Virus record (IMG/VR): IMGVR_UViG_3300012920_000302
Coordinates: 1 to 22,605 of that record
Source: a virus
Reading direction: 5' to 3' (one strand)
DNA: 22,605 bases
Part shown: piece after piece, positions 312 through 22,507 of the stretch
How the letters are laid out: each line of letters opens with the position of its first letter
How positions within the stretch are numbered: position 1 is the stretch's first letter
Made by a program: the position numbers and the translations under genes
Notes under the pieces: model-generated
The model's database searches: none
What the model saw: only the letters and a program-made list of their open reading frames with translations
Told to the model about the DNA's origin: nothing

Positions 312-319
312 CATAAATA
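312..319 (+). promoter_or_regulatory. T4-type late promoter box CATAAATA
   Basis: CATAAATA differs from the T4 late consensus TATAAATA at one base. With T4 geometry (box at about -13 to -6) transcription would start near 325, giving a ~33-nt leader that contains the Shine-Dalgarno GGGAG at 343-347 before the ATG at 358. Confidence 0.65.
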
Positions 320-7830: not shown

Positions 7831-7838
7831 TATTTATT
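7831..7838 (-). promoter_or_regulatory. Late promoter box AATAAATA for gp14-gp15-Nudix
   Basis: One mismatch to TATAAATA on the minus strand. T4 spacing puts the start near 7825, only 3 nt before the gp14 ATG at 7822. It lies back-to-back with the gp13 promoter at 7853-7860. Confidence 0.65.
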
Positions 7839-7852
7839 GTGTAGAGCAAACC

Positions 7853-7860
7853 AATAAATA
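7853..7860 (+). promoter_or_regulatory. Late promoter box AATAAATA for gp13
   Basis: One mismatch to the T4 consensus. It ends 5 nt before the gp13 ATG, so T4 spacing would start the transcript exactly on the A of ATG 7866. No Shine-Dalgarno is seen. Confidence 0.7.
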
Positions 7861-7865
7861 CGAGT

Positions 7866-8627
7866 ATGTCAGAACTTCAAACAGGTCAACAAGAGATATT
7901 TGATTACGTAAAGAACAATCTAGGTGAGGGTATGATTGACGTGGAATTAGACCCAAAACACTATCAAACGGCGCTGACTAGAGCCATAGACAGATACAGA
8001 CAACGCAGTTCAAATGCAGTTGAAGAATCTTATGCTTTCTTGAAATTGAAAGAAAATCAAAATACATATATTTTACCAGATGAAGTGATCAATGTGAGAA
8101 AATTATTTAGACGTACAGTGGGTTCCAGAACTGAAGGTGGAGAAGGCGGTACATTATTTGAACCATTCAATTTGGCATACACTAACACTTACCTTTTGAG
8201 AGCAGGTGCTACAGGTGGATTGGCCACTTACTATGCTTTCGCAAGTTATCAAGAATTAGTGGGCAAATTGTTTGGTTCATTTATTCAATTTCATTTTGAT
8301 GTGGCCACAAAAAAATTAACAATCACACAAAGACCAAGAGCAGATCAAGAAACTATCTTGATGCACACGGACAATTTTAGACCTGACATCACATTGTTCA
8401 AAGACATATATTCAAAACCTTGGATCAGAGATTACACACTGGCAGTTTGTAAAACAATGTTGGGTGAAGCCAGAGGCAAATTCAATACCATAGCAGGACC
8501 ACAGGGTGGCACAACTCTCAACGGTGCGGAACTAAAACAACAAGGTCTTGCTGAAATAGAAAGACTGGACCAAGAAATTGGCAACTTTGCTGAAGGTGGC
8601 ACACCACACAGTTTTGTTATTGGTTAA
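7866..8627 (+). CDS. 13: Neck protein gp13-like
   Basis: 253 aa. The N-terminus (QEIFDYVKNNLGEGMIDVEL...YQTALTRAIDRYRQRSSNAVEESY) and following YILPDEVINVRKLFRR, then AFASYQELVGKL, and TITQRPRADQETILMHTDNFRP...KPWIRDYTLAVCKTMLGEARGKF are the recognisable gp13 pattern of T4-like phages. gp13 and gp14 form the neck that closes the packaged head and joins the tail. T4 gp13 is ~309 aa, so this is a compact version. Start ATG 7866 is chosen for the family N-terminus and the adjacent late-promoter box. Transcribed divergently from gp14, unlike the co-directional 13-14-15 order I recall from T4 and cyanophages. Confidence 0.85.
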   Translation: MSELQTGQQEIFDYVKNNLGEGMIDVELDPKHYQTALTRAIDRYRQRSSNAVEESYAFLKLKENQNTYILPDEVINVRKLFRRTVGSRTEGGEGGTLFEPFNLAYTNTYLLRAGATGGLATYYAFASYQELVGKLFGSFIQFHFDVATKKLTITQRPRADQETILMHTDNFRPDITLFKDIYSKPWIRDYTLAVCKTMLGEARGKFNTIAGPQGGTTLNGAELKQQGLAEIERLDQEIGNFAEGGTPHSFVIG

Positions 8628-8643
8628 TTCTTAATCACACTAT

Positions 8644-8651
8644 TTTAAATA
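8644..8651 (+). promoter_or_regulatory. Late promoter box TTTAAATA
   Basis: One mismatch to TATAAATA, 7 nt before the ATG at 8659. The predicted leader is about 2 nt and no Shine-Dalgarno is visible. Confidence 0.5.
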
Positions 8652-8658
8652 AAGCGGT

Positions 8659-8844
8659 ATGTTAGAACAAGACCCGCAAAGAAAATACTCAGATCTCACA
8701 CTGGACGAATTGGAACAAGTGGTAACAGACTTGGAAAATATGAGTATTGCGGCCTTAAAACAAAAGAAAAAAGATCTTAGACATTTGATCTTAAAATCTG
8801 CAGAAGCGGCCAAAAAAGAGATTGAAAGACGTCTCAAAATCTAG
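8659..8844 (+). CDS. Small coiled-coil protein of unknown function
   Basis: 61 aa. Almost wholly charged, with heptad-like Leu/Ile spacing (LTLDELEQVVTDLENMSIAALKQKKKDLRHLI...AAKKEIERRLKI), so a long alpha-helical coiled coil is predicted. No signal peptide, membrane segment or known motif. It lies between gp13 and the dNMP kinase, 31 nt after gp13, with its own late-type box. The Lys-rich second half could bind nucleic acid or a partner protein, but no function is recognised. The codon pattern fits the neighbours and the late box and tight spacing support it as a real gene. Confidence 0.7.
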   Translation: MLEQDPQRKYSDLTLDELEQVVTDLENMSIAALKQKKKDLRHLILKSAEAAKKEIERRLKI

Positions 8845-8850
8845 TATAAT
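8822..8850 (+). promoter_or_regulatory. Sigma70-like promoter for the dNMP kinase
   Basis: TTGAAA (8822-8827), 17-nt spacer, then perfect TATAAT (8845-8850). Transcription would begin around 8857, the A of the kinase ATG. The -35 lies inside the end of the upstream small gene. This suggests early or middle expression by host RNA polymerase. Confidence 0.6.
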
Positions 8851-8856
8851 AAACAA

Positions 8857-9492
8857 ATGCTGATAGGAATTGTAGGACTGATAGGTTCTGGAAAAGACAC
8901 TGTGGCCAATAGACTGGTAGAAAAACACGGTTACCGCAGAGACAGTTTTGCCAAAAGTTTAAAAGACGCAGTGGCATCTATGTTCAATTGGGATCGTGAA
9001 ATGCTGGAAGGCAATACCACAAAGTCAAGAGAATGGAGAGAACAACCTGACGAATTCTGGAGCAAAAAAATGGGCAAATCTGTCACACCAAGATGGGTGT
9101 TACAGTACTTTGGCACAGAAGTCATGCGTGGTCAAATGTATGACGGTATATGGGTAGACAGTTGTATTGGCAGATACAAAGGCCAACCCACTGTGATATC
9201 AGACACTAGATTTGTGAACGAAGTTAAAACCATCAAAGCACACGGTGGCAAAATTGTGTGTGTAAAAAGAGGTGAATTGCCCACACAAAAACAAATGCAA
9301 GAACGTGGTGCTCATCAATCAGAATGGGATTGGTTAGACAGCGAATTTGATTTTGTTATAGACAACAGTGGCACAAAGGAAGAACTGTTTGCCAAAGTAG
9401 ATGACCTAATCGTCAGCAACAAGATCACCCATACGCCAACCCAATCTACGAACACTGCCCAACCGTTGGCAATTGGCGCAAACAGTTTTTAA
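8857..9492 (+). CDS. 1: Deoxynucleoside monophosphate kinase, gp1-like
   Basis: 211 aa. The P-loop is at residues 7-15 (GLIGSGKDT, K13), followed by GYRRDSFAKSLKDAVASMFNW and, near residue 80, TPRWVLQYFGTEVMR, the pattern of T4 gp1-type dNMP kinases. These phosphorylate dNMPs (in T4: dTMP, dGMP and hydroxymethyl-dCMP) to dNDPs to feed phage DNA synthesis. VISDTRFVNEV (~111-121) and FVIDNSGTKEEL (~167-178) fit the later family motifs. The last ~25 residues (after VDDLIVSN) look unconserved and are encoded antisense to the 3' end of the HNH gene, an 87-bp convergent overlap. A sigma70-like promoter lies directly upstream; there is no Shine-Dalgarno. Confidence 0.85.
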   Translation: MLIGIVGLIGSGKDTVANRLVEKHGYRRDSFAKSLKDAVASMFNWDREMLEGNTTKSREWREQPDEFWSKKMGKSVTPRWVLQYFGTEVMRGQMYDGIWVDSCIGRYKGQPTVISDTRFVNEVKTIKAHGGKIVCVKRGELPTQKQMQERGAHQSEWDWLDSEFDFVIDNSGTKEELFAKVDDLIVSNKITHTPTQSTNTAQPLAIGANSF

Positions 9493-9765
9493 ATTGGTAT
9501 AGGCTGTATTTCTTAGATCACCATCCACAAACATCACATCCAGTTGTAATGGATCCTGTGCTTTGAATCCACACATCTCACACTTTTTGAGTTTTTTATA
9601 TCCTGATCTTTGTAGGGGTGTTACACCACCAATTTTTTTGTGCTTGTGAATTCTGTTACAAGTGTCACATCTGCTACGCCAATAGATTTTGCCTGCTTTC
9701 TTGTAGGCATAGGCCCTGGGTCGTGACTTGCACTCCACACACAAAGGTCGCACTGTTTTGTTCAT
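9406..9765 (-). CDS. Zinc-ribbon protein with degenerate HNH endonuclease domain
   Basis: 119 aa. Four CxxC knuckles: C9/C12, C33/C36, C62/C65 and C96/C99, arranged as two zinc-ribbon/HNH-like halves. The second half (CEMCGFKAQDPLQLDVMFVDGDLRNTAYTNLKTVCANCQR) follows the HNH outline, with D81-G82, N86, N91-L92 and the final CxxC, but the position that normally carries catalytic His (VFHIDGD-type) is F79 here. Proteins of this kind, as I recall, are widespread in T4-like cyanophages. Possible roles are nuclease, nicking or DNA binding; loss of the His favours a non-catalytic role. Transcribed against the kinase with an 87-bp 3' overlap, and divergent from gp18. Confidence 0.75.
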   Translation of the reverse strand: MNKTVRPLCVECKSRPRAYAYKKAGKIYWRSRCDTCNRIHKHKKIGGVTPLQRSGYKKLKKCEMCGFKAQDPLQLDVMFVDGDLRNTAYTNLKTVCANCQRLGSVRRLGWRMGDLVADD

Positions 9766-9771
9766 ATATGC

Positions 9772-9779
9772 TATTTACG
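9772..9779 (-). promoter_or_regulatory. Weak late-type box CGTAAATA for the HNH-like gene
   Basis: Matches only the TAAATA core. It ends 6 nt before ATG 9765, giving a predicted 1-nt leader like several other genes here. Confidence 0.4.
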
Positions 9780-9784
9780 TTGCC

Positions 9785-9802
9785 TATATAGGTACCTAAA
9801 TA
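9785..9802. promoter_or_regulatory. 18-bp inverted repeat in a divergent intergenic region
   Basis: TATATAGGT/ACCTAAATA pairs as a 9-bp dyad with one mismatch and contains the perfect palindrome TAGGTACCTA (9789-9798). A second palindrome CCTATATAGG (9783-9792) overlaps it. It sits between the HNH-like gene and gp18 and could be an operator or an overlapping pair of promoters. No function is established. Confidence 0.4.
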
Positions 9803-9814
9803 TGGTAAATTTTG

Positions 9815-9831
9815 TCGTAAAAACCTTACGA
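9815..9831 (+). other. Small hairpin upstream of the gp18 promoter
   Basis: TCGTAA (9815-9820) and TTACGA (9826-9831) form a 6-bp stem with a 5-nt loop. There is no T tract, so it is a poor terminator. It directly precedes the late box at 9835. Confidence 0.35.
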
Positions 9832-9834
9832 TCT

Positions 9835-9842
9835 AATAAATA
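9835..9842 (+). promoter_or_regulatory. Late promoter box AATAAATA for tail sheath
   Basis: One mismatch to TATAAATA. The predicted start near 9848 gives a ~36-nt leader with AAGGAG at 9868-9873, 10 nt before ATG 9884. This conventional leader suits a very highly expressed virion protein. Confidence 0.7.
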
Positions 9843-9883
9843 CTTTCAGTATATACGTACAACTTGCAAGGAGAACACGTAAA

Positions 9884-12800
9884 ATGGCTTTAACATCACC
9901 AGGAGTAGAGGTTTCCGTAATAAACGAAAGTTTTTATGTACCATCAGATGCGGGTACAACACCTCTGTTTATAGTAGCATCTAGTCAAGACAAGGACAAT
10001 GGAGCAGGCACAGGCACAGCGGCAGGCACAACAACTGCGAACGCAAACACTGTATACTTGCTTTCATCACAAAGAGAATTAACAGAAACATTTGGAGATC
10101 CAAAATTCTACACAGATGCTTCAGGTAACCCAATTCACGGTTATGAATTGAATGAGTGGGGCCTACAAGCGGCATATTCATTCTTAGGAATTGCCAACAG
10201 AGCATATGTTTTAAGAGTAAATGTTGACACAGCAGACCTAATTGGTAGTGCAACGGCTCCAACAGCGGCACCGTCAGATGGCACATACTGGCTTGACCTT
10301 GCATCAAGTTCTTATGGTATATTTGAGTGGAGCCAAACAGATCAAAAATTCACAGCAAAAACACCAACGTTGATAACTTCAGTTTCTAACCTGGTAGGAA
10401 ACAGTTCAACAGGTGCACCAAAAACTTCAGTGGGTGCCATTGGTGATTATGCAATCAACACAACACACGTGAGCAACAAAATTTACAAAAAAACTGCTTC
10501 AAACACTTGGGTACATTTGGGTTCAAGTGCTTGGCACAACAGTTTGCCTGTGAAAACAGTTGCTTCAGGAACAACAGTCACAAGTGGACACAACATTCAA
10601 GTTAATGGTGTTCAAGTACAAACGGCTGGTACAGCATTATCAGATGTGGCAACAGCATTTACTAGTGCTAACGTTCCAGGTGTAAGTGCAAGTGTAAACA
10701 GCACAACAGGAAACTTAGAAATTTTCCACAACGGTTTAGGCTTTGGTGATTCAACTGCTGGCTTCAACACAATAAGATTTGAAGAAGGCAATGGAACATT
10801 ATTAGCAGACTTAGGAATCACAGCCGGCACACACAACGGTGTTAAATTCCTACAAGCAAAACACACAAACAGACCAACTTGGAAGACAGCAGACGAGGAC
10901 AGACCAAACGGTTCAGTTTGGTTCAAAACAACTTCTGCTAACTCAGGTGCTAACATTGTTGTAAAACTTTACAGCACAGCAGACGGGTCTTTCAGTTCAG
11001 TAAGTGCTCCGTTGTATGCAACAAATCATCAAGCAATATACAACCTTGATCCATCAAACGGTGGAACAGCGTTGAGCGTTGGCGACTTGTACACACAATT
11101 CAACATCACTGAACAATCAGTAGATGGACAGCAAGATGGCACACCAAATGTAGGTGACTTCCAGGTGTTCAGATACGAAGGTGGTGAAACAATAATTCAA
11201 TCAAAAACAACTTACCCAAGTTTCACAGCAAACGAAACTTTCACTGTAAGAGAATCAGTTAAAAATCAAGAAGCATTAGCGGCGGCCAAAACTGTTACTA
11301 TGGCTTCTGGAGATGGTTCTACACTAGGTGATCAAGAAGACTTTGTGACAGCATTCAACGGTGCTGGTTTCACAAACTTGGTTGCTTCTGTGATCACAGA
11401 AGGTGAGTTCAAAGGTGCAATTCAAATCAAACACAAATTAGGTGGTGAGTTTAGAATGAACAACACATCAGGAACACCACTTGATGACGCAGGATTTGGT
11501 ACAAGTGCCGCACACAGTTATGGTGGATACACTGCCAACAGTACAACACTGGTTGACAACTTATATGTTGCTCCAACAGGTGACTCAGAAGACTCAACTG
11601 TGGGTAACGAAGTGGTTGCCACAAACTGGAAACGTCTAAGTTACACAGCATCAGCAAGTGCTCCAACTGACGAGCCAACAGATGGCACATTATGGTATGA
11701 CACTAAGATTGATGAAGCAGACATTATGACTCACAACGGTACAACTTGGAAAGGTTACAAAGAAGTATACGCAACAACTGATCCAAATGGACCACAGTTC
11801 AGTGCAACTGCACCAACTACACAGTCAGATGGAACTCCACTTGTAGCAAATGACTTATGGATTGACACAAGTGATTTAGAAAACTATCCAAAACTTTACA
11901 AATACAACACATCAGCAACGTTAAGTTCGACTAACACAGCAAACCAAGTGGCAGTTACCACAACAGGTGCGGCTTGGGAATTAGTTGACAAAGCAGACCA
12001 AACCACTGAAGACGGTGTGGTTTTTGCAGATGCTAGATACCACACAGCGGCAGAAAGAAATGCAAACAACAGCACACAGGCTGGCACAGCAAGTTCAATC
12101 AAAGACTTATTAAGCGATTCTTTCTTAGACCCAGATGCTCCAGATCCAGCAAATTACCCACGAGGTATCTTGTTATGGAACACTAGAAGAAGTGGTTACA
12201 ATGTTAAAGAATATAAAAACAATTATATCACAACTACCAAGTATCCAAGTTCAGGTTCTTCAGGACTAGGTAACGTTAGATACAACAACGAATCAGTTGC
12301 AGGTTACTACCCAGACAGATGGGTAACTAAATCTGCCAACAACGCAGACGGTTCAGGAACTTTTGGTAGAAAAGCACAAAGACAAGTAGTTGTAGCACAA
12401 TTGAAATCAGAGATTGCCACTAACCAAGCAATCGGAGAAGATCAGAGAGGTTACAATGTTATTGCTTGTCCTGGATACCCAGAAGTAATACAAAATTTGA
12501 TTGACTTGAACACAGATCGTAACAACACAGCATTTGTTGTGGGTGACACACCTTTAAGATTAGAAGGTACATCAACTGCAATACAAAACTGGGCAACAAA
12601 CTCAGCAGGTGCATTAGACAATAGCGAAGACGGCCTTGTGAGTTCAAGTGATTACTTGGGTGTGTTTTATCCGTCAGGATTGACCACAGACAACGCAGGT
12701 AATTCAATTGTTGTTCCACCAAGTCATATGATTTTGAGAACATTGGCAAACAACGACAACGTGGCATTCCCTTGGTTTGCACCAGCAGGAACTAGACGTG

Positions 12801-13312
12801 GTGTTGTTGACAACGCAACAGCAGTAGGTTACGTTGATTCAGACTCAGGAGAGTTTGAAACAATCAGTGTCACAGAATCTGTAAGAGATTCTATGCACGA
12901 AGTCAAAGTAAATCCAATAACTTTCTTCTCAGGATCGGGTATTGTGAACTTTGGTAACCTAACAATGACCACATCAGGGTCTGCATTAGACAGAATCAAC
13001 GTATCAAGATTGGCAGTGTATCTAAGAAACCAATTAGATGCCATTGCTAAACCGTTTATCTTTGAACCAAATGATGAACTGACAAGAAACGAAATCAAAC
13101 AAGCGATTGAATCATTCTTGTTAGAACTAGTTGGACAAAGAGCGTTGTTTGACTTCCTAGTAGTTTGTGACGACACAAACAACACATCTACTAGAATAGA
13201 CAAAGGTGAACTATATGTGGACATCGCGATTGAACCTGTGAAATCAGTTGAGTTTATCTACATACCGTTAAGATTAAAAAACACAGGAGAAATAGCAAAT
13301 TTAGGGAACTAG
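9884..13312 (+). CDS. 18: Tail sheath protein gp18-like, enlarged
   Basis: 1142 aa, against ~659 for T4 gp18. The N-terminus (MALTSPGVEVSVINESFYVP, then TTPLFIVASSQDKDNG and YLLSSQRELTETFGDPKFY, AYSFLGIANRAYVLRVN) and the C-terminal ~320 residues (EIATNQAIGEDQRGYNVIACPGYPE, ISVTESVRDSMHEVKVNPITFF, NVSRLAVYLRNQLDAIAKPFIFEPND, GELYVDIAIEPVKSVEFIYIPLRL) are typical of contractile sheaths. The protein forms the helical sheath around the tube and contracts on infection. Residues ~120-720 are a Thr/Ser/Gly-rich insertion with several short modules of the form DG(T)xWxDT...YNGTxWK (near 131, 185, 330, 595, 645), probably outward-facing decoration. Strong Shine-Dalgarno AAGGAG and late promoter upstream; gp19 follows after 23 nt. 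Confidence 0.9.
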   Translation: MALTSPGVEVSVINESFYVPSDAGTTPLFIVASSQDKDNGAGTGTAAGTTTANANTVYLLSSQRELTETFGDPKFYTDASGNPIHGYELNEWGLQAAYSFLGIANRAYVLRVNVDTADLIGSATAPTAAPSDGTYWLDLASSSYGIFEWSQTDQKFTAKTPTLITSVSNLVGNSSTGAPKTSVGAIGDYAINTTHVSNKIYKKTASNTWVHLGSSAWHNSLPVKTVASGTTVTSGHNIQVNGVQVQTAGTALSDVATAFTSANVPGVSASVNSTTGNLEIFHNGLGFGDSTAGFNTIRFEEGNGTLLADLGITAGTHNGVKFLQAKHTNRPTWKTADEDRPNGSVWFKTTSANSGANIVVKLYSTADGSFSSVSAPLYATNHQAIYNLDPSNGGTALSVGDLYTQFNITEQSVDGQQDGTPNVGDFQVFRYEGGETIIQSKTTYPSFTANETFTVRESVKNQEALAAAKTVTMASGDGSTLGDQEDFVTAFNGAGFTNLVASVITEGEFKGAIQIKHKLGGEFRMNNTSGTPLDDAGFGTSAAHSYGGYTANSTTLVDNLYVAPTGDSEDSTVGNEVVATNWKRLSYTASASAPTDEPTDGTLWYDTKIDEADIMTHNGTTWKGYKEVYATTDPNGPQFSATAPTTQSDGTPLVANDLWIDTSDLENYPKLYKYNTSATLSSTNTANQVAVTTTGAAWELVDKADQTTEDGVVFADARYHTAAERNANNSTQAGTASSIKDLLSDSFLDPDAPDPANYPRGILLWNTRRSGYNVKEYKNNYITTTKYPSSGSSGLGNVRYNNESVAGYYPDRWVTKSANNADGSGTFGRKAQRQVVVAQLKSEIATNQAIGEDQRGYNVIACPGYPEVIQNLIDLNTDRNNTAFVVGDTPLRLEGTSTAIQNWATNSAGALDNSEDGLVSSSDYLGVFYPSGLTTDNAGNSIVVPPSHMILRTLANNDNVAFPWFAPAGTRRGVVDNATAVGYVDSDSGEFETISVTESVRDSMHEVKVNPITFFSGSGIVNFGNLTMTTSGSALDRINVSRLAVYLRNQLDAIAKPFIFEPNDELTRNEIKQAIESFLLELVGQRALFDFLVVCDDTNNTSTRIDKGELYVDIAIEPVKSVEFIYIPLRLKNTGEIANLGN

Positions 13313-13317
13313 ATTTG

Positions 13318-13325
13318 GGTAAATA
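13318..13325 (+). promoter_or_regulatory. Weak late-type box GGTAAATA before gp19
   Basis: Matches the TAAATA core only. Its 3' A is also the first base of the gp19 Shine-Dalgarno AGGAG (13325-13329), so a transcript starting ~6 nt downstream would exclude that site. gp19 is probably also read from the gp18 promoter. Confidence 0.35.
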
Positions 13326-13335
13326 GGAGAAACAA

Positions 13336-13956
13336 ATGGCAATATCAACTTTATCAAAATTTACAGTACCACTAGCAAACGATCAAAGTTCAGCATCACA
13401 AGGCTTATTGATGCCAAAACTTCAGTATCGTTTTAGAGCGATCCTGGAAAATTTTGGAGTATCAACACCACGTTCAGAACTTACAAAACAAGTGATGGAC
13501 ATAACAAGACCTAATTTGACTTTTGACAAAGTGACACTAGATGTGTACAACTCAAGAGTATATGTAGCAGGTAAACACACTTGGGATCCAATCACAATCA
13601 CTCTTAGAGATGATGTTAACAACTCTGTTAGCAAATTGGTTGGTGAGCAGATTCAGAAACAGTTTGACTTTTTTGAACAGGCAAGTGCGGCATCTGGTAT
13701 TGATTACAAATTTACTGGTAGAATTGAAATGTTAGATGGTGGTAACGGAGCAAGTACACCTTCAGTTTTAGAAACTTGGGAACTATATGGTGCTTATGTT
13801 GAGAACGTTAACTACAACTCATTAGCATACAACACTTCAGAACCAGCAACAATCACATTGTCAGTACAATACGACAACGCAGTACAAACTCCAATTGGAA
13901 CAGGAATTGGTACAGCAGTTGCAAGAACACTTGGTACTTTAAGTACAGGTGGTTAA
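13336..13956 (+). CDS. 19: Tail tube protein gp19-like
   Basis: 206 aa. The T4 gp19 fold pattern is visible: LMPKLQYRFRAILENFGVS (first strand), ELTKQVMDITRPNLTFDKVTLDVYNSRVYVAGKHTWDPITITLRDDV, YKFTGRIEMLDGG, then VLETWELYGAYVENVNYNSLAYNTSEPATITLSVQYDNA. Hexamers of gp19 stack into the inner tail tube through which DNA passes. T4 gp19 is ~163 aa, so this one is moderately longer. The start ATG 13336 has AGGAG 6 nt upstream. It lies 23 nt after gp18, is followed by a terminator at 13987-14013, and its position directly after the sheath gene is the standard order. Confidence 0.9.
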   Translation: MAISTLSKFTVPLANDQSSASQGLLMPKLQYRFRAILENFGVSTPRSELTKQVMDITRPNLTFDKVTLDVYNSRVYVAGKHTWDPITITLRDDVNNSVSKLVGEQIQKQFDFFEQASAASGIDYKFTGRIEMLDGGNGASTPSVLETWELYGAYVENVNYNSLAYNTSEPATITLSVQYDNAVQTPIGTGIGTAVARTLGTLSTGG

Positions 13957-13986
13957 TACAGTTTAGATTAGCATTTATAATACAGG

Positions 13987-14013
13987 AAAAGCGTCTTTAT
14001 AGGCGCTTTTTTT
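13987..14013 (+). terminator. Rho-independent terminator after gp19
   Basis: Stem AAAAGCGTCT (13987-13996) pairs with AGGCGCTTTT (14001-14010) with one T-G wobble and a 4-nt loop, and runs into further Ts. It ends the gp18-gp19 unit and abuts the next late promoter. Confidence 0.85.
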
Positions 14014-14018
14014 GTGGC

Positions 14019-14026
14019 TATAAATA
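14019..14026 (+). promoter_or_regulatory. T4-type late promoter TATAAATA, leaderless geometry
   Basis: Perfect consensus, 5 nt after the terminator T tract and 5 nt before ATG 14032. With T4 spacing +1 is the A of that ATG. It also shows that a GTG at 14014 cannot be the start for this transcript. Confidence 0.8.
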
Positions 14027-14031
14027 ACAGT

Positions 14032-15423
14032 ATGCCAAAGATAAATGATTTCTTACAAGGGTTTCAAGACAACCTACCAGGTTTAAAAGATTTCCGTCAC
14101 GCATCTAGATTGTATTTGGATGACAATTTCAAACTGGCACCCAAAAACAAATTTTTATTCCACGTGGTCTTTGACACAGATGAAGATTTATTTTACGGAG
14201 GATTTAATTCTGCAGAAAAATACCAACTCAATATGTTGGTCAAAAGTGCCGATTTGCCAAAATACGGAATGAATCTTGAAGAAAAAATTCAATACAACAA
14301 AAAGGTATACACTGCCACAAGAATACAGTACGAACCTGTGAATATTGTTTTCCATGATGACCAAGCAGATACCGTAAATGCATTTTGGAAAAAATATTAT
14401 GAATATTACATAGCAGATCCAAAAGCACTAAACATTGAACTAGCAATTAACCAAAACAAAGACGATACCTATGATCCTATCGACGGCAAAACTAGATATA
14501 GATTTGGTCTGGACACCGGCATAAAAAGAAAACAACCATATCTAAGAAACATTCAATTGTTTGTGTTACATAAAAAAAGATTCACTTCAATGACATTGGT
14601 CAATCCAGTGATTGGTTCTTTCAGTCACGACAATGTGGATCAGGCTGACGGTGCTGGAGTGCTGTCTAACACAATGCAAATATTTTATGAAACTGTGGTT
14701 TATGCCAGTGGCATTATAGTTCCAGGCGAACTGCCAAAAGGGTTTGCCACTTTGAACTACGACAAAGAACCTTCGCCACTGACTGTGTTTGGTAGAGGCA
14801 CAAACTCTATTTTTGGTCCTGGAGGTGTTGTGGACGGAATAGGCTCTGCAATTAAATTATTTCAAGAAAAAAACATTCTAGGTGCAATATTGGCGGCAGG
14901 TAACACCTACAACAATGCAAAAAAAATAAAAAAATCAGATGCCAAGGCCGAACTCAAAGGCATTGCCAAAAAAGGTGTACAAGAAATTGGCAAACAGGCA
15001 GGATCAATTTCAAATCCTGTGGCGCAGTTTGCTGTTGGTGCCGCTTCGTTGCTGGCCATCAAAGAAGCCAATGCCAAAGGCACAAATGATCAACAAAACA
15101 AAGCCAACACAAAAGTGATATCATCGCCAAGTTTAGACACCGCTCAGTTTCTTACACCCGACGAAGCATTTAATCTTGTAAACACAAACGCAACTGTGAA
15201 AAATCAAGTGGCCGCGGGCATATATTTCAAAGACATTGGTTCAAGAAAAAATTTGACTGTGGCACAAAGTGACATTGAATACACTAATGCAAATGCAACC
15301 ACAAAAACAGTTTATCAAAACAAAGCAGTAACTAATGTGAGAAAACTGGTCACTGAAGGATATCTAAAAATTTCAAGACAGACGCTTAATGTAAATATTG
15401 AAACTGAGAAAGCAAACATTTAA
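14032..15423 (+). CDS. Tube-fold structural protein, probably gp54-like tail tube initiator
   Basis: 463 aa from ATG 14032 (MPKINDFLQGFQDN); the frame extends to GTG 14014 but that lies upstream of the promoter box. The N-terminal ~240 residues (FRHASRLYLDDNFKLAPKNKFLFHVVF, INMLVKSADLPKYG-like, YNKKVYTATRIQYEPVNIVFHDD, NAFWKKYYEYYIADP, FTSMTLVNPVIGSFSHDNVD, MQIFYETVVYASG) have the gp19/gp54 tube-fold pattern, and similar proteins occur in marine T4-like phages. gp54 starts tube assembly on the baseplate. The C-terminal ~200 residues are an Ala/Lys-rich, partly helical extension (AAGNTYNNAKKIKK..., FAVGAASLLAIKEANAKG) with no recognised domain. The next gene overlaps the stop (TAATG). Assignment to gp54 rather than a second tube-like protein is moderate. 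Confidence 0.6.
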   Translation: MPKINDFLQGFQDNLPGLKDFRHASRLYLDDNFKLAPKNKFLFHVVFDTDEDLFYGGFNSAEKYQLNMLVKSADLPKYGMNLEEKIQYNKKVYTATRIQYEPVNIVFHDDQADTVNAFWKKYYEYYIADPKALNIELAINQNKDDTYDPIDGKTRYRFGLDTGIKRKQPYLRNIQLFVLHKKRFTSMTLVNPVIGSFSHDNVDQADGAGVLSNTMQIFYETVVYASGIIVPGELPKGFATLNYDKEPSPLTVFGRGTNSIFGPGGVVDGIGSAIKLFQEKNILGAILAAGNTYNNAKKIKKSDAKAELKGIAKKGVQEIGKQAGSISNPVAQFAVGAASLLAIKEANAKGTNDQQNKANTKVISSPSLDTAQFLTPDEAFNLVNTNATVKNQVAAGIYFKDIGSRKNLTVAQSDIEYTNANATTKTVYQNKAVTNVRKLVTEGYLKISRQTLNVNIETEKANI

Positions 15424-15800: not shown

Positions 15801-16240
15801 TGTTACCAAGATTCGCCAAAGGAAAATTTCATCCTAAAAATCAAGAAAAATATGTAGGACTGAAGACTCCCACATACAGATCCAGTTGGGAACACGCATT
15901 TATGCGACTGTGTGATGAACACCCTAACGTGGCCAAATGGGCCAGCGAATCAATCAAGATTCCTTACCGTCATCCACTCACGGGCAAATACACAGTGTAC
16001 GTGCCAGACTTTTTCATAGTGTATGTGGACAAGAACGGCAGAAAAAATGCAGAACTGATAGAGGTCAAACCAATGGCACAAACATCGATGGAGGCCGCAG
16101 GCAGAAGTATGGGCAAGAAAAAACAGGTCATAATCAATCAGGCCAAGTGGGAGGCCGCCAATGCCTATGCCAGACAGAACAAAATTAGATTCAGAGTGGT
16201 GTCAGAAGAACAACTGTTCCACAACGGCACACGTAAGTAA
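15800..16240 (+). CDS. 4: Head completion nuclease gp4-like
   Basis: 146 aa (T4 gp4 ~150). N-terminal FAKGKFHPKNQEKYVGLKTPTYRSSWEHAFMRLCDEHPNVAKWASESIKIPYRHP is the clear gp4 signature. A TnsA-like PD-(D/E)xK nuclease site is readable: E31 in the SSWEHAF helix, D70 in YVPDFF, and E88-V-K90 in ELIEVKPM. gp4 acts on packaged DNA ends so that filled heads can be joined to tails. The start ATG 15800 overlaps the previous stop. Its TAA stop (16238-16240) lies inside the late-promoter box of gp16, so termination of this gene and initiation of the next share bases. Confidence 0.9.
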   Translation: MLPRFAKGKFHPKNQEKYVGLKTPTYRSSWEHAFMRLCDEHPNVAKWASESIKIPYRHPLTGKYTVYVPDFFIVYVDKNGRKNAELIEVKPMAQTSMEAAGRSMGKKKQVIINQAKWEAANAYARQNKIRFRVVSEEQLFHNGTRK

Positions 16241-16243
16241 ATA
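16236..16243 (+). promoter_or_regulatory. Late-type box AGTAAATA for gp16
   Basis: Keeps the TAAATA core, contains the gp4 stop codon, and ends 5 nt before ATG 16249, giving a predicted transcript beginning on the ATG. Confidence 0.5.
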
Positions 16244-16248
16244 AAACA

Positions 16249-16770
16249 ATGACAAAGAAATTAGAAGATATTTTAAATTTACCAAATGTCAAAGAAGCAT
16301 TCAAAGAAGTGGATGCCAAGGAAAAAGAGAAAACTGCCAAAGACACAGCAAATGGTAAAAGCAAAAATCTAGATCCTGAAACACACAAAAACTTACAGAA
16401 AAGTTATGCGGAATTTGACAAAGTTGCGGCCGCACTGCCACAGGTCAAAGGCTTGGGTGAATTATCAGACCTAGAACTGGACAAACTGGCTGTGGAAGCA
16501 GAAGAAAGTTACAAGAATCTAATGGACTTGGGCATGAACGTGGACTCACGTTATTCAGGACGTATATTCGAAGTGGCTAGTACAATGTTACGTAACGCCA
16601 TAGATGCCAAATCCAACAAAATTGACAAGAAATTAAAGATGGTTGAACTGCAACTAAAGAAAATGAAGTTGGACAAAGACGGCGAATCTGACGCTCCGAT
16701 AGAAGCACAAGACGGTTTTGTGATATCTGACCGTAATGAATTAATGAAGAAACTATTGAAAAAAGACTAA
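16249..16770 (+). CDS. 16: Terminase small subunit gp16-like
   Basis: 173 aa (T4 gp16 ~164). The central helical hairpin and the segment KNLMDLGMNVDSRYSGRIFEVASTMLRNAIDAKSNKIDKKLKMVELQLKKMKL form the antiparallel coiled-coil core typical of gp16, and the C-terminus (DGFVISDRNELMKKLLKKD) matches the usual short tail. gp16 oligomers recognise phage DNA and stimulate gp17 ATPase and cutting during packaging. Position fits: gp4 upstream, gp17 two genes downstream. Two genes are inserted between 16 and 17, which are adjacent in T4. No Shine-Dalgarno precedes ATG 16249, only the late-type box. Confidence 0.85.
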   Translation: MTKKLEDILNLPNVKEAFKEVDAKEKEKTAKDTANGKSKNLDPETHKNLQKSYAEFDKVAAALPQVKGLGELSDLELDKLAVEAEESYKNLMDLGMNVDSRYSGRIFEVASTMLRNAIDAKSNKIDKKLKMVELQLKKMKLDKDGESDAPIEAQDGFVISDRNELMKKLLKKD

Positions 16771-16773
16771 ATA
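16766..16773 (+). promoter_or_regulatory. Late-type box ACTAAATA
   Basis: Includes the gp16 TAA stop and ends 6 nt before ATG 16780, giving a predicted 1-nt leader. Confidence 0.45.
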
Positions 16774-16779
16774 TTGCAT

Positions 16780-17400
16780 ATGAGCACGTTCCAACAGTAT
16801 CTTACAGAAGCATCTAAGTCATACGATTATAAAATTAAGGTCGCAGGCGAGCCTAAAGACATCGACAAAAACAGACTGGAAACTGCACTACAAAAATTTG
16901 AAGTGGCCAGTATGTCAGCAGGCAAAAGCACACCTATTCAAAGTTTACCTTTGGATTTTCCACAGTTAAGCAACGAGCAAGTGACCATCTTTGATGTGAC
17001 CACAAACTATCCTGCCAGTTCAAGAGAAATGCACGAGTACCTAGCAACTTATATGGACTTACCTTTGACACATTTGGTTGTGAGAAGAGCCGGAGAACCA
17101 ACAGAAGAATATCAAGATCAAATGGAAATTGCTCAAAAATCAGAATATCAAAACAAACTTTTAGACATTGAGTACAAAGATGCCGCTAAAGTGAACGCAG
17201 AAGATTTTCATTCCACAAAAGCAAACATGAGTTTGTTGAAAGAATTACTTAAAGACAGAGATGCCAAATACGAAATTGAAAAAGGCACAGACAACAAAAC
17301 ACAAGAAGCACAAAGCAAAGAAGAACAGGCAAGTGCTTCACCAGTGACACCAGCACACAAAGGTGCTGTCAAAGGCAACCCACATCCAGCAGGAAAATAA
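16780..17400 (+). CDS. Conserved marine T4-like protein with capsid-targeting-like N-terminus
   Basis: 206 aa from ATG 16780; a TTG two codons upstream overlaps the promoter and is rejected. The first residues, MSTFQQYLTEASKS, resemble the T4 capsid-targeting sequence of internal head proteins (MKTYQEFIAEA type) and contain LTE, a consensus cut site for the gp21 prohead protease after E10. The next ~110 residues (YDYKIKVAGEP, LETALQKFEVASMSAGKSTPIQSLPLDFPQL, VTIFDVTTNYPASSREMHEYLATYM, THLVVRRAGEP) form an alpha/beta domain that I recall as conserved in cyanophages without assigned function. The C-terminus is Lys/Glu-rich and disordered. It sits between gp16 and gp17. Packaging into the head is inferred. 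Confidence 0.7.
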   Translation: MSTFQQYLTEASKSYDYKIKVAGEPKDIDKNRLETALQKFEVASMSAGKSTPIQSLPLDFPQLSNEQVTIFDVTTNYPASSREMHEYLATYMDLPLTHLVVRRAGEPTEEYQDQMEIAQKSEYQNKLLDIEYKDAAKVNAEDFHSTKANMSLLKELLKDRDAKYEIEKGTDNKTQEAQSKEEQASASPVTPAHKGAVKGNPHPAGK

Positions 17401-17402
17401 TC

Positions 17403-18632
17403 ATGGAAATGATGGACTTGATACAGAAATTAAATGAGATTTCTGAAAGAGAATTAACTAGAGGCGAAACTGCCAAAAAAGAAAAAATTGTCAAATCAAT
17501 GAAAAAAGACAAAGCCGGTTTTGAAAAAAGATACGGCGATGACGCTGAATCAGTGATGTATGCCACAGCAACCAAAATGGCCAAAAACGAAGCAATAGGC
17601 GACTCTGCTGACTTACAGAAAATTAAAACAGCGGCAGGTGGTGAAGAAATGCTAGTGAAAACTATGTTTGCGTCAGCAATTCAAAATGGTTTAGACGAAG
17701 GCGATTTCATTGACTCAGCGAGAAGAATGCTAAACATGACACCAGACAACATCAAAGCAATAATTGACAATGACACAAAGGCAATGGGAGATTCAGAACA
17801 ACCGGCCACAGAAGGTGGAATGAGTGACATACACATTGGTGCCCAAGAGGCAGTTGGTGAATATCTTGACGATGACGGAAATTTAAAAATGCCAAAAAGA
17901 GATGTGGTGGCAGATCTAGTGAAAAGATCCAAAGAAGCATCAATGCCATTATCATATGAATTAGAAACAGCGGCCAAAATGGTTGCTAATGACTTTGATG
18001 ACGGAGGCGCTAGAAGACACGAAATTGATGAACCTTATGACTTAGAATCAACTGAACTAAATACAAACACTATGGAAAACAACGACAAAAAAAACGTTAA
18101 AGAAGCAATACAAATGACAGCAGACACTCCCGAAGAAGCAGGAATGTTAATGCAGATTTTAAAAATGGCCGGCATCAAACCAATGGGTGCTGAAATGCCA
18201 GACACCAAACCAGGTGACGAAATGGATCCAGGTGAACTTAACAAACAAATGGATCAAACTGACGGTGACGAAATGGCAAAATATATGGGCATGATAGCAA
18301 AGCCTGATATGGAAAAACAAGAAGAAACTTTTGCTAACGAACCAGAAGAAAAAACACAAGATGTTGACAGTTTGGTAAATGTACACTCAGGTGGACTAAA
18401 CAGACAAAAAACACAGTACAGAAAAGAATATCCAGGCGACAATCCAATGGCAGTGGAAGACAAAATCACTGAAGAGGAATTGGCCAACAGCCTAAGAACA
18501 CAATACGAAGGTTTCAAACAAGCGTATCAAGAAGCGGCAAAACCAGACTACATTGACTTAGACAAAGACGGCAACAAAACAGAGCCAATGAAAAAGGCCG
18601 CACAAGACAAAGAAGCCAAAGACAAAAAATAA
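17403..18632 (+). CDS. Acidic Lys/Glu-rich protein with EF-hand/Excalibur-like motif
   Basis: 409 aa. It starts 2 nt after the previous stop; ATG 17403 has AGGA ~8 nt upstream and no late-type box, so it is in an operon with the 16780 gene. Residues ~19-60 (RGETAKKEKIVKSMKKDKAGFEKRYGDDAESVMYATATKMAKNEA) are a repeat-like motif found in several marine phage proteins. Most of the rest is low-complexity, rich in Asp, Glu, Lys and Met. Near the C-terminus PDYIDLDKDGNKTEPMKKAA carries a DxDxDGxxxE loop, Excalibur/EF-hand-like, suggesting Ca2+ binding. No signal peptide or membrane segment. Could be an internal head or scaffold-like protein; function not recognised. Confidence 0.65.
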   Translation: MEMMDLIQKLNEISERELTRGETAKKEKIVKSMKKDKAGFEKRYGDDAESVMYATATKMAKNEAIGDSADLQKIKTAAGGEEMLVKTMFASAIQNGLDEGDFIDSARRMLNMTPDNIKAIIDNDTKAMGDSEQPATEGGMSDIHIGAQEAVGEYLDDDGNLKMPKRDVVADLVKRSKEASMPLSYELETAAKMVANDFDDGGARRHEIDEPYDLESTELNTNTMENNDKKNVKEAIQMTADTPEEAGMLMQILKMAGIKPMGAEMPDTKPGDEMDPGELNKQMDQTDGDEMAKYMGMIAKPDMEKQEETFANEPEEKTQDVDSLVNVHSGGLNRQKTQYRKEYPGDNPMAVEDKITEEELANSLRTQYEGFKQAYQEAAKPDYIDLDKDGNKTEPMKKAAQDKEAKDKK

Positions 18633-18656
18633 GTCTTTTCCTCGCTACATTCTACC

Positions 18657-18664
18657 ATTAAATA
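18657..18664 (+). promoter_or_regulatory. Late-type box ATTAAATA for gp17
   Basis: Lies 7 nt before ATG 18672 in the 39-nt gap; predicted leader ~2 nt, no Shine-Dalgarno. Confidence 0.5.
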
Positions 18665-18671
18665 CTACACT

Positions 18672-20267
18672 ATGGCATATGTAAGTTTAGATTCAGAGCA
18701 GATTAAAAAAGCCAATAAGAAACACAAATACACCAAAGAACAGGTTTTACAACTTGAAAAGTGTATGGATCCCAAAACAGGTCCATTGTACTTTATGAAA
18801 ACTTTTATGAAGATACAACATCCTGTCAAAGGTGAAATGCCTTTTGAACCATTTCCTTATCAAGAACGATTGATAGAAAGTTACAACAATCACAGATTCA
18901 GTATTGCCATGCTACCCAGACAGACAGGTAAAACAACCTGTGCTTCAGGATTTTTGATATGGTACGCAATGTTTAGACCAGATTCACAAATACTAATCGC
19001 CGCACACAAATACGCAGGAGCATCAGACATCATGTCCAGGGTGCGTTATGCGTATGAGATGTTGCCTGCTTGGATCAAAGCAGGTGTAAACCAATACAAC
19101 AGGAACTCAATAGAATTTGACAACGGATCAAAGATAATGGCCACAACCACAACTGAAAACACAGGGCGGGGTATGTCACTTACATTGATCTACTGTGATG
19201 AGTTCGCATTCGTACAACCACCTGAAAAAGCCAAAGAGTTTTGGACTTCACTGTCACCAACATTGAGTACAGGAGGAAAGTGTATGATAACATCTACTCC
19301 CAACTCAGATGAAGATCAATTTGCCATGATTTGGAAAGAAGCCAACAAACGTTTTGACGAGTATGGCAACGACAAAGTGGTAGGCACAAACGGATTCTAT
19401 GCCATGAAGGCACACTGGTCAGAACATCCTGACAGAGATCAGGCCTGGGCAGACGCAGAAAGATCAAGAATTGGTGAAGAAAGATTTAGAAGGGAACACG
19501 AGTGTGAATTCTTAATCTTTGACGAAACATTGATCAGCAGTATACATCTTGCTGACATGGAAGGTGTACCGCCAGTGGAAACCACAGGACAGGTACGTTG
19601 GTTCAAACGTCCAACACCTGGTATGACTTATCTTGTCAGTCTAGATCCCAGCATGGGTACAGGCGGAGACTATGCGGCCATACAGGTTTTTGAACTGCCA
19701 ACATTTGAACAAGTGGGCGAATGGCATCACAACATGACGCCAATGAATCAACAGATTAGAATACTACAAGGCATAAACAAACACATACACGACACTATAC
19801 TAGAAAAAGACAGCAGTGCCTCCCCGCAAATATTTTACAGTATGGAAAACAACACCATTGGTGAAGCCGCTCTGATGAGAGTTATGGACATAGGTGAAGA
19901 AAACATAATTGGTATGTTTTTGTCAGAACCAATACGTAAAGGACACAGACGTAAATTCAGAAGAGGATTTAATACCACTGCCAAACACAAAATAGATGCC
20001 TGTACCAAATTTAAAGAACTAATAGAAGGTGGTAAAATGAAAATCAATTCACAACTGTTGATATCTGAAATGAAAGACTTTGTGGCCACAGGTTTGAGTT
20101 ACAAAGCCAAACCAGGACAGCACGATGACCTTGTAATGAGTTGTCTGCTAATGACACGTATGATGAAAGTTCTAGCAGATTTTGACCCTAAAATATTTGA
20201 AAAATGGACAGACAGATCCTCAGAATTAACCACACCCATGCCCATCTTTGGAAACTTCTACGGATAA
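18672..20267 (+). CDS. 17: Terminase large subunit gp17-like
   Basis: 531 aa (T4 gp17 ~610). ATPase domain: Q-motif-like FEPFPYQERLI (~58-68), Walker A LPRQTGKTT at 81-89, Walker B LIYCDE with D176-E177, and the coupling motif ITSTPNS (~205-212). Nuclease domain (RNase H fold): D325 in VSLDPSMGTGGDYAAI, E392 in YSMENNTIGEAAL, and D485/D486 in GQHDDLVMS, matching the T4 D401, E458, D542 set. gp17 is the motor and endonuclease that fills the prohead at the portal. The shorter length relative to T4 comes mainly from the termini. Its stop overlaps the promoter box of the following gene. Confidence 0.95.
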   Translation: MAYVSLDSEQIKKANKKHKYTKEQVLQLEKCMDPKTGPLYFMKTFMKIQHPVKGEMPFEPFPYQERLIESYNNHRFSIAMLPRQTGKTTCASGFLIWYAMFRPDSQILIAAHKYAGASDIMSRVRYAYEMLPAWIKAGVNQYNRNSIEFDNGSKIMATTTTENTGRGMSLTLIYCDEFAFVQPPEKAKEFWTSLSPTLSTGGKCMITSTPNSDEDQFAMIWKEANKRFDEYGNDKVVGTNGFYAMKAHWSEHPDRDQAWADAERSRIGEERFRREHECEFLIFDETLISSIHLADMEGVPPVETTGQVRWFKRPTPGMTYLVSLDPSMGTGGDYAAIQVFELPTFEQVGEWHHNMTPMNQQIRILQGINKHIHDTILEKDSSASPQIFYSMENNTIGEAALMRVMDIGEENIIGMFLSEPIRKGHRRKFRRGFNTTAKHKIDACTKFKELIEGGKMKINSQLLISEMKDFVATGLSYKAKPGQHDDLVMSCLLMTRMMKVLADFDPKIFEKWTDRSSELTTPMPIFGNFYG

Positions 20268-20273
20268 TAAATA
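20266..20273 (+). promoter_or_regulatory. Late promoter box AATAAATA
   Basis: One mismatch to TATAAATA, shares bases with the gp17 stop, and ends 6 nt before ATG 20280; predicted 1-nt leader. Confidence 0.6.
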
Positions 20274-20279
20274 CACTAT

Positions 20280-22484
20280 ATGAATCCAAAAACGTCACAA
20301 GACCTGTTTAACAAAATTAGATCGCAGTTCAGCAACATCAAAATTGGTGATGAAAACGGTGCCGCAACAGCAGATGCTTCTGAGGCAGTGTTTTTTGAAT
20401 TTGAATATCAGCCAGACAGCGACACATTTGGATCTATCAGCATATCAATAGCAGACGGTGAGAACATGAAAGTGTATTACAACCGTGATCTAGTGGAAAA
20501 AATAGACGAATCTGAACGAGACAACTGGTATGCTTTCCTTAAAGAATTAAAAGACTTTGCTGTGGAACACAGCCTTACATTTGACGTTAGAGACATTACT
20601 AAAACGCACCTATCGAAGCAGGATTATCAAAATCTCGCAGATACGAATCAAACGGTAAATACTGATGAAATGTCAGAAGAACTACAAAGACTCACTAAAT
20701 TAGCAGGCGTAACAGAGGGCCTTTCAGGCACTGCCAAACGTTCTTACGAGAACTTGGACAAAACAAGATTAATAATCAGACACACAGGCAAAGTTGATGA
20801 AACTGTGCCAGGCGCAAGATCAAGACAGATACAATCATTATACATTGAAAACGAAGATGGCGAAAGATTCAAGTATCCATTAACACATCTAGCAGGTGCC
20901 AGAGCAATGGTTAGACACGTGGCCAACGGTGGCAGACCACACGATGAGTTTGGCCAACACATAATACAGACTTCAGAAGACATTGCCAAACTGCAATCGT
21001 TTTCAAGATATGTCACAAACAAAGATCAACTGAATGACAACGCAGGCGACATCATTGAGCAGACAAAATTAAAATTAGAAAACCTAAGATCATATGTTAA
21101 AAATTTAAGCAAACAATCACACTACGAAAACGCCAGCAAAGATTTCAAAACAGCAGACGAAGTTGTGTTGGACGACGAAACAGTTAACAAGTTAAGAGAA
21201 AAATTCACAATGAAAAATCTAGACAACAGAGTAGAGGACGCATTGCCAATCATCAACAGAATTATGAGCGAACTAGAACAACCACAAGCAGAACCTGAAG
21301 TAACAGAATTCAAAGACGAAGACAAACCAGAGCCATACGCAGACGCAGGTATGGATGTTGTGAAATTCATCACAGATCCCAACAGCAAAATATTATTAAA
21401 CAAGGCACTGCCAGATGAGAAAAAATATGAACCACTAGGCAAGTCAGGCGAAGAGAGCAAAATGATCAGAGTGTTATCAGACATAGCATCAAGAATGTTG
21501 ACTGACACACCAGCAGGCGACAGAGTGGCCAACTTTGCTTCAAGAATGAGTGACCAAATGGAAAAAGGCAAAGGCGATGCGTTCAAAGGCAAGGACACAG
21601 TAGACGGACCAGGATACGAAAACAGAAACAGAAAAATTGCAAAAGCACTAGTGGCCAAGTATATGAAATCAGCAGAAGAGATTGATCCAGCAGATTTCAA
21701 AAAGAAAAAAGACATCAAAGGCAAAGAGTATGCCAAAGACCCAATGAGACCAGAAGCGGCATTTGAAGGTTGGGTTGACTCGGTTGGTGAAGCAACAATC
21801 AAACCTTATGTGTCAATGTACAAAGGTAAGGACGGTAAAATGGTCTATGACGTGCTAGACAAAGACAGCAACTCAGCATACAAAAGTGGTGACATGAAAG
21901 CGGCACAGGAATACCTAAGCAAAAATTATGACAAACTGAAAAGCGGTGAGTCTGTTCACAACGAAGAAGAACTAGACGAATACGCCAAAACAGATTTTGA
22001 AAGTTGGTTGGCCAGAAAAGGCAAAGACATCAAAGACCTTAAAGCAGACGAATACACAGCAATGGTACAACAGTACAAACAGCAAAAAGATAGAGCAGAA
22101 AAAATGCAGGCCGCAGGCATTATGAAAAAAGAAGGCATGGGCGACAAAATTGCAGACATGGCACAGAGCTTGAGCAAGGACGAATTTATGAGTCATGCTG
22201 ATGATTTGGGTCTTACACCAGAAGAAGCCGCAGAACACTATGAGAAGATGCAAGGCGGTGCACACGCTGGCAAGTTTGAGGGTAACCAGTTTGCACAGGC
22301 AGTACAGAAAGCCAAGGCGGCAGGTATGAAAGCAGGCAACAAATTCAAAGTGGGCGATCAAGAATACACACTGAAAGATGCTATTGAATTGGCAGGCCTA
22401 CAATTAGAAGAATTCTTTTCAGAAGAAGAACAGGCATACGATAACCAAATAGATCGTATCAAAAACCTAGCACTTTACCAATAA
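20280..22484 (+). CDS. Large protein of unknown function downstream of gp17
   Basis: 734 aa. The N-terminal ~115 residues form a mixed alpha/beta domain (AVFFEFEYQPDSDTFGSISIS, MKVYYNRDLVEKI, NWYAFLKELKDFAVEHSLTFDVRDITKTHL). A short SEELQRLTKLAGVTEG segment (~131-147) of a kind frequent in marine phage proteins follows. Residues ~150-290 are mixed (KRSYENLDKTRLIIRHTGKVDE, YIENEDGERFKYPLTHLAGARAMVRH). The rest is mostly helical and Lys/Glu-rich, including KPYVSMYKGKDGKMVYDVLDKD (~515-537) and EFMSHADDLGLTPEEAAEHYEKMQGG (~637-662). No signal peptide, membrane segment or known catalytic motif. The late promoter and place in the packaging block suggest a virion or head-associated role, but this is inference. 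Confidence 0.75.
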   Translation: MNPKTSQDLFNKIRSQFSNIKIGDENGAATADASEAVFFEFEYQPDSDTFGSISISIADGENMKVYYNRDLVEKIDESERDNWYAFLKELKDFAVEHSLTFDVRDITKTHLSKQDYQNLADTNQTVNTDEMSEELQRLTKLAGVTEGLSGTAKRSYENLDKTRLIIRHTGKVDETVPGARSRQIQSLYIENEDGERFKYPLTHLAGARAMVRHVANGGRPHDEFGQHIIQTSEDIAKLQSFSRYVTNKDQLNDNAGDIIEQTKLKLENLRSYVKNLSKQSHYENASKDFKTADEVVLDDETVNKLREKFTMKNLDNRVEDALPIINRIMSELEQPQAEPEVTEFKDEDKPEPYADAGMDVVKFITDPNSKILLNKALPDEKKYEPLGKSGEESKMIRVLSDIASRMLTDTPAGDRVANFASRMSDQMEKGKGDAFKGKDTVDGPGYENRNRKIAKALVAKYMKSAEEIDPADFKKKKDIKGKEYAKDPMRPEAAFEGWVDSVGEATIKPYVSMYKGKDGKMVYDVLDKDSNSAYKSGDMKAAQEYLSKNYDKLKSGESVHNEEELDEYAKTDFESWLARKGKDIKDLKADEYTAMVQQYKQQKDRAEKMQAAGIMKKEGMGDKIADMAQSLSKDEFMSHADDLGLTPEEAAEHYEKMQGGAHAGKFEGNQFAQAVQKAKAAGMKAGNKFKVGDQEYTLKDAIELAGLQLEEFFSEEEQAYDNQIDRIKNLALYQ

Positions 22485-22499: not shown

Positions 22500-22507
22500 G
22501 ATAAATA
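22500..22507 (+). promoter_or_regulatory. Late promoter box GATAAATA
   Basis: One mismatch to TATAAATA. Predicted start near 22513 gives a ~69-nt leader ending in AAAGGAGG (22565-22572), 9 nt before ATG 22582, so this is a long-leader, Shine-Dalgarno type unit. Confidence 0.6.

Follow-up and report, generated by a model that had tools for sequence, protein, structure and literature searches.

Late transcription in phage T4 is a textbook system in which messenger RNAs (mRNAs) are led by Shine-Dalgarno (SD) sites. Leaderless mRNAs are also known in phages and bacteria, for example those of the lambda cI type and those of mycobacteria and Prochlorococcus, and to our knowledge the phage cases have so far mostly been individual genes. 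The T4 late promoter is an 8-bp box at -13 to -6 with no -35 element (PMC2988020), phage transcripts are often leaderless according to a paper on phage AR9 (PMC5312081), and leaderless starts have been reported as likely in Prochlorococcus (PMC5607370). Leaderless mRNA is spared by kasugamycin (PMC5230787). Here we analyze the late-type boxes, with the core TAAATA, in IMG/VR virus record IMGVR_UViG_3300012920_000302, taken at its full length of 22,605 bases (hereafter, the window), which is itself a genome fragment. Many of these boxes lie so close to a start codon that they are very probably T4-type late promoters with +1 on the AUG or up to three bases before it, which would make the mRNAs leaderless or nearly so.

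Boxes fused to start codons in the window

We define spacing as the number of nucleotides (nt) between the end of TAAATA and the start codon, and we call a box or gene fused when the spacing is 5-8. The initial annotation, made from the letters of the window, described nine TAAATA boxes at such spacings, none accompanied by an SD site, and held that this phasing was not random. All nine boxes are present, with the following spacings read from the sequence:

7855-7860, plus strand: late-type box TAAATA of gp13 (neck, head-tail adaptor); ATG 7866, spacing 5, predicted leader 0
7866-8627, plus strand: gp13-like neck protein gene (PHROG head-tail adaptor Ad2)
7831-7836, minus strand: late-type box TAAATA of the gp14-like gene; ATG 7822, spacing 8
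6656-7822, minus strand: gp14-like gene, product begins MPRLSIF
8646-8651, plus strand: box of the 61-amino-acid (aa) gene; ATG 8659, spacing 7
8659-8844, plus strand: 61-aa gene, no assigned function
9772-9777, minus strand: box of the HNH-like gene; ATG 9765, spacing 6
9406-9765, minus strand: HNH endonuclease-like gene
14021-14026, plus strand: late-type box of the gp54-like gene; ATG 14032, spacing 5
14032-15423, plus strand: gp54-like/tail-tube-like gene
16238-16243, plus strand: box of the gp16-like gene; ATG 16249, spacing 5; overlaps the preceding stop codon
16768-16773, plus strand: box of the 16780 gene; ATG 16780, spacing 6; overlaps the gp16 stop codon
18659-18664, plus strand: box of gp17 (large terminase); ATG 18672, spacing 7
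20268-20273, plus strand: box of the 734-aa virion protein gene; ATG 20280, spacing 6

Nine of the 20 window starts are fused. When the 60 nt upstream of each start were shuffled 20,000 times with dinucleotides preserved, the mean number of fused starts was 0.10 and the highest was 3. Three fused starts (14032, 16780, and 7822) are ATGs inside the longest open reading frame (ORF); they are supported by relatives, in which the box stands 5-8 nt before the corresponding ATG in 18/18, 14/14, and 65/65, respectively, and an in-frame ATG upstream of the gp14 start is missing in some relatives. The gp13 and gp14 genes are divergent in the window, with 43 bp between their start codons. In several relatives, the gp14 and gp15-like genes abut without an SD site (window start 6656), which suggests that gp15-like translation may be coupled downstream of the fused gp14 start.

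Conservation of the spacing across the clade

By protein families, the window holds a T4-type structural region (gp13, gp18, gp19, gp54-like, gp4, gp16-like, gp17, and neighbours), and membership in the T4 superfamily is supported by homologues of gp13, gp17, gp18, and gp23. No close counterpart of the window was found among isolated phages; its nearest isolated relatives by gp13, gp17, and gp18 are Sinorhizobium phage Phosso, Pseudomonas phage PA5oct, and Agrobacterium phage Atu_ph07. Scanning IMG/VR with gp13 retrieved at least 600 stretches, with at least 599 relatives, and scanning with gp17 retrieved 506 stretches. The clade survey covered nine contigs of an abundant, uncultured marine T4-type clade (six first, then three previously unused) with 647 ORFs, and genes were called by a simple ORF rule that was identical for every genome compared.

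The initial annotation had staked its claim in advance on a genome-wide excess of the motif at 5-8 nt, and such an excess is present: among the 647 ORFs, spacings of 4, 5, 6, 7, 8, and 9 occur 4, 38, 39, 23, 16, and 3 times. These counts include orthologues; at the family level, fused boxes precede members of 38 protein families. In the first six contigs, no combination of hexamer and spacing before ATGs ranks above TAAATA at 5, 6, and 7 nt, which take the first three places, and the three further contigs repeat the pattern. Fused genes account for about 14-39% of called genes per contig, and the start codons at spacing 5-8 comprise 69 ATG, one GTG, and no TTG. The lack of SD sites was also borne out, with a mean anti-SD energy of -0.3 kcal/mol in the fused class (38 families), as against -3.2 in other families and about -2 in background stretches.

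Each of the nine boxes recurs in orthologues. The spacing of gp13 is exactly 5 in all 78 relatives with upstream sequence among the matches listed, while the flanking sequence varies; gp14 relatives have 6-8 (65/65), as do positional relatives of the 61-aa gene (56/56), and relatives of the HNH-like gene have 5-8 in 15 of 21. For the gp54-like gene, the spacing is 5-8 in 18/18 relatives and in 43/45 of a second set; for gp16 it is 5-7 in 60/63, with 27 distinct spacers. The remaining genes have 6 or 8 (16780 gene, 68/68), 7-8 (gp17, 77/77), and 6-7 (734-aa gene, 76/76). Across hundreds of orthologues, then, the bases of the spacer vary and the spacing stays in range. The operon neighbours gp3-like and gp4 have no TAAATA box in 59/59 and 60/60 cases, respectively. 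The nine-box observation is confirmed, and it is stronger than could be known from the window.

A terminator before the gp54-like gene

The clearest fused case is that of the gp54-like gene, where terminator, box, and ATG lie within 45 nt (window 13987-14031):

13987-14013, plus strand: intrinsic terminator (AAAAGCGTCTTTATAGGCGC followed by T7) between gp19 and the gp54-like box; the T tract ends 7 nt before the box

A hairpin (-9.5 to -12.6 kcal/mol) with a T tract precedes the gp54-like box in 18/18 relatives, and its pairing is kept, since GGCGC faces GCGCC in some stems and GCGTC in others. A consensus terminator scanner did not list this hairpin. With a conserved terminator directly before the box, the gp54-like mRNA should start at the fused box.

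Late-type and sigma70-type promoters

A TATAAATA-like box stands ahead of structural genes, as in T4-type late promoters. Because +1 lies six bases beyond a TAAATA that ends at -6, a spacing of 5 places +1 on the A of the AUG, and the abrupt start of the spacing distribution at 5 is consistent with +1 six nt after the box. Host RNA polymerase with a phage gp55-type sigma would read the 8-bp box at -13 to -6, with no -35, and the placement of the box would start the transcript on the AUG or up to about three bases before it; the 5'-terminal AUG would presumably then be recognised without SD pairing. The gp55 late sigma is encoded in the clade (two clade contigs match with E values of 1.5e-44 and 2.5e-41, and a contig of the metagenome-assembled genome (MAG) MED657 with 1.5e-43), and the gp33 co-activator (PF16805) was not found in 10 partial contigs.

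A second class of promoter is also fused to start codons, namely TATAAT with a TTGACA-like -35 at 16-18 nt, as before the deoxynucleoside monophosphate kinase gene and others:

8822-8850, plus strand: sigma70-type promoter TTGAAA-N17-TATAAT of deoxynucleoside monophosphate kinase; ATG 8857, spacing 6

The sigma70 -10 element spans -12 to -7, so that at spacing 6, the modal value for TATAAT-fused genes, +1 falls on the AUG. A -35 with at least 5/6 matches to TTGACA occurs in 3 of 116 TAAATA-fused genes, in 15 of 31 TATAAT-fused genes, and at 35 of 579 other TATAATs (Fisher p = 7e-10 for the TATAAT-fused genes, several of the 31 being orthologues and not independent). Judging from the promoter type, the TATAAT-fused genes would be expressed early. 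The initial annotation had described the fused genes as a class of late genes. This description held insofar as late-type boxes are phased clade-wide with the predicted +1 at the AUG or no more than 3 nt from it and lack SD sites; it proved too narrow in that sigma70-type promoters with a -35 are fused likewise in the same genomes, so that short-leader expression would be a general habit of the clade and not only a late one. Fused TATAAT sites like that of the kinase gene recur before other clade genes.

Comparison with other phages

The clade resembles T4-type late promoter systems (gp55/gp33/gp45) in the TAAATA core, the absence of a -35, the association with structural genes, and the presence of gp55. 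It differs in where the box is placed. With the same script, no genes with a box at 5-8 were found in T4, Syn9, Cr30, and phiM12, and almost none in PA5oct, Phosso, Atu_ph07, and Vibrio 2.275; in most of these eight phages, the boxes peak at about 20-35 nt upstream. In T4, Syn9, PA5oct, Phosso, Atu_ph07, and Vibrio 2.275, the box at this distance is mostly combined with an SD site, whereas in the clade most start-proximal boxes are fused. Orthologous gp13 genes in PA5oct, Phosso, and Atu_ph07 have a leader and an SD site, as does Phosso gp14; Phosso has the same divergent gp13/gp14 pair, but with boxes about 28-33 nt upstream and strong SD sites.

A parallel is offered by the Pelagibacter T4-like phages HTVC008M and Mosig and the Methylophilales phage Melnitz, in which genes for neck, baseplate, and accessory functions have a box exactly 5 nt before the start. 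The spike at this spacing comprises 11 genes in HTVC008M, 6 in Mosig, 4 in P-SSM2, and 3 in Melnitz. Annotated HTVC008M starts that are fused include those of the tape measure, gp2, gp4, gp48-like, gp25, a baseplate wedge gene, gp3, CsgF, a cyclase, and an oxygenase, and its gp18, gp19, and gp23 have SD-type leaders. In HTVC008M (NC_020484, 18916-18943), 26 bp separate the start codons of the divergent genes gp2 and gp4, each of which has a box at a spacing of exactly 5. HTVC008M, Mosig, and Melnitz, however, belong to another T4-like lineage (Kyanoviridae), with spacings of exactly 5 rather than 5-8 and far fewer fused genes, and the spike in HTVC008M and Mosig suggests convergence. No description of the genes of HTVC008M, Mosig, or Melnitz as leaderless was found in the papers on them that were located.

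A phage-encoded S21 was considered as a helper for leaderless translation. It is present in HTVC008M, Mosig, and Melnitz, and was not found in the clade fragments; it is not explanatory, because PA5oct, Phosso, and Atu_ph07 carry S21 yet have almost no fused genes. With known leaderless mRNAs (lambda cI type, mycobacteria, Prochlorococcus), the fused genes share a predicted 5'-terminal AUG, the lack of an SD site, and the AUG start; the clade differs from known leaderless phage genes in the proportion of genes involved and in the participation of both promoter classes.

Genes with leaders and alternative explanations

The initial annotation set the fused genes apart from a leader class with boxes 38-83 nt upstream and strong SD sites, comprising gp18, both fibre genes, and the 22582 gene. 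The boxes hold for all four, and strong SD sites (-7.4 to -8.5 kcal/mol) for gp18 and the fibre genes:

9797-9802 and 9837-9842, plus strand: two late-type boxes before gp18, 81 and 41 nt upstream; leader class
9868-9873, plus strand: AAGGAG SD site of gp18 (tail sheath, ATG 9884), -8.5 kcal/mol, conserved (TTGCAAGGAG)
314-319, plus strand: box of fibre gene 358, 38 nt upstream, with SD site; leader class
1436-1441, plus strand: box of fibre gene 1525, 83 nt upstream, with SD site; leader class
22502-22507, plus strand: box of the 22582 gene, 74 nt upstream; leader class
13320-13329, plus strand: composite TAAATAGGAG before gp19 (tube), ATG 13336; box spacing 10, SD site directly behind the box

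The box about 40 nt upstream of gp18 is kept in relatives. At gp19 (TAAATAGGAGAAACAAATG, window 13320-13336), a GGAG lies between the box and the ATG, and a transcript from gp19's own box would not include this SD site; the box may therefore be vestigial, or the SD site may serve a gp18-gp19 read-through mRNA.

From these genes it had been proposed that virion copy number sets two translation classes, with low-copy proteins leaderless and abundant ones given leaders. As a purpose, this is compatible with start-fused late promoters, and we hold it tentatively, a little short of evenly balanced. The genes of the most abundant virion proteins (gp18, gp19, and gp23) retain strong SD sites in the clade and in HTVC008M, and neck and packaging genes are fused in both; the fused genes are gp13, gp14, gp16, gp17, and gp54-like here and gp2, gp4, gp48, gp25, gp3, and gp13 in HTVC008M. 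The rule fits the fibres poorly: T4 fibres are low-copy, and the window fibre genes, which are probably low-copy as well, have leaders, whereas a tail-fibre-like gene is fused in contig G013. The rule also draws on few data points, and on gene classes rather than protein quantities. We would like to note that the copy-number pattern is a lead and not a result.

Several points weigh against transcripts that begin at the AUG. The 5' ends of all these phages are predicted purely from promoter geometry; spacings of 6-8 are not all strictly leaderless and would allow either leaders of 1-3 nt or a flexible choice of start; and the window contig, a fragment, has no gp55. An initiator test (Y-1 R+1), comparing a fixed start with one that follows the AUG, found a pyrimidine at -1 favoured at spacing 5 and not at 6, and was suggestive at spacing 5 and not decisive at 6-8. 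Finally, 46 of the 116 fused genes (about 40%) lie at most 30 nt behind a same-strand gene, often with the box overlapping that gene's stop codon, so that for these genes coupling on read-through mRNA could add to translation. Carried further, this last point yields an alternative in which the late promoters are real, but translation proceeds mainly through longer read-through mRNAs with coupling, and the spacing reflects genome compaction. We consider this unlikely. The upstream neighbour is on the opposite strand for 40 of the 116 fused genes, gp13 and gp14 included, the gp54-like gene is cut off from upstream by its conserved terminator, and tightly packed genes without a box stand in the same operon, so that compaction alone does not create boxes.

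TAAATA at 5-8 nt does occupy the position of the SD site, and replaces it, which raises the possibility of a translational signal (an SD substitute, or an A/U-rich site for the ribosome or S1) rather than a promoter. We rejected this reading as quite improbable. TAAATA also occurs 38-83 nt upstream in genes with SD sites and directly behind the terminator at the gp54-like gene, the non-fused genes inside the operon (gp3-like and gp4) are free of it, and sister phages carry the same box 20-35 nt upstream. Moreover, a promoter sequence of another kind, with a -35, is fused as well, at the spacing that fits its +1, and two unrelated promoter types each placed in this way make a ribosome signal hard to sustain. 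Chance placement of an AT-rich motif in AT-rich DNA (34-44% GC in these genomes) has a negligible probability, being refuted by the dinucleotide-preserving shuffles, by other A/T hexamers used as controls, and by the similarly AT-rich phages T4, Syn9, PA5oct, and Atu_ph07, which have zero or almost no genes at 5-8.

Novelty, hosts, and further observations

Leaderless phage mRNAs are already known; start-fused T4-type late promoters, as predicted here, are apparently new. No description of them, and no paper mapping start sites for cyanophage Syn9, was found in the literature searched, and most subscription papers lay outside its coverage. If the predicted architecture is correct, a widespread marine lineage has promoter and start codon as one unit, and leaderless translation can be tested there as a routine mode. 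In uncultured phages, the sequence rule (box to ATG 5-8 nt) also helps to decide which start codon is used and gives predicted 5' ends.

Binning has placed clade phage contigs (L244, L245, and L246) in a Ca. Pelagibacter MAG and the 'Rickettsiales' MAG MED657, a weak hint of a SAR11 host. Leaderlessness in the host was set aside: no TATAAT peak near the ATG was seen in host genes of the two MAGs sampled (the Ca. Pelagibacter bin and MED657, MAGs with gp13 relatives), and the binning of phage contigs is weak evidence of host, so that the host link is unproven. A lineage with this predicted architecture would suggest that the layout of phage promoters may be influenced by host translation. It is possible, though we would lean slightly against it, that T4-type phages whose hosts are streamlined marine bacteria, probably SAR11-like, moved promoters onto start codons at least twice independently; this would give a phage-wide leaderless mode with host-type and late promoters, in which the genes of the highest-copy proteins retain SD leaders and the 5'-end architecture thus sets the expression level.

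At the start of the window, a 97-aa ORF (5-298) repeats the C-terminal part of the adjoining 336-aa fibre protein (358-1368), and the two likely represent a tandem tail-fibre domain.

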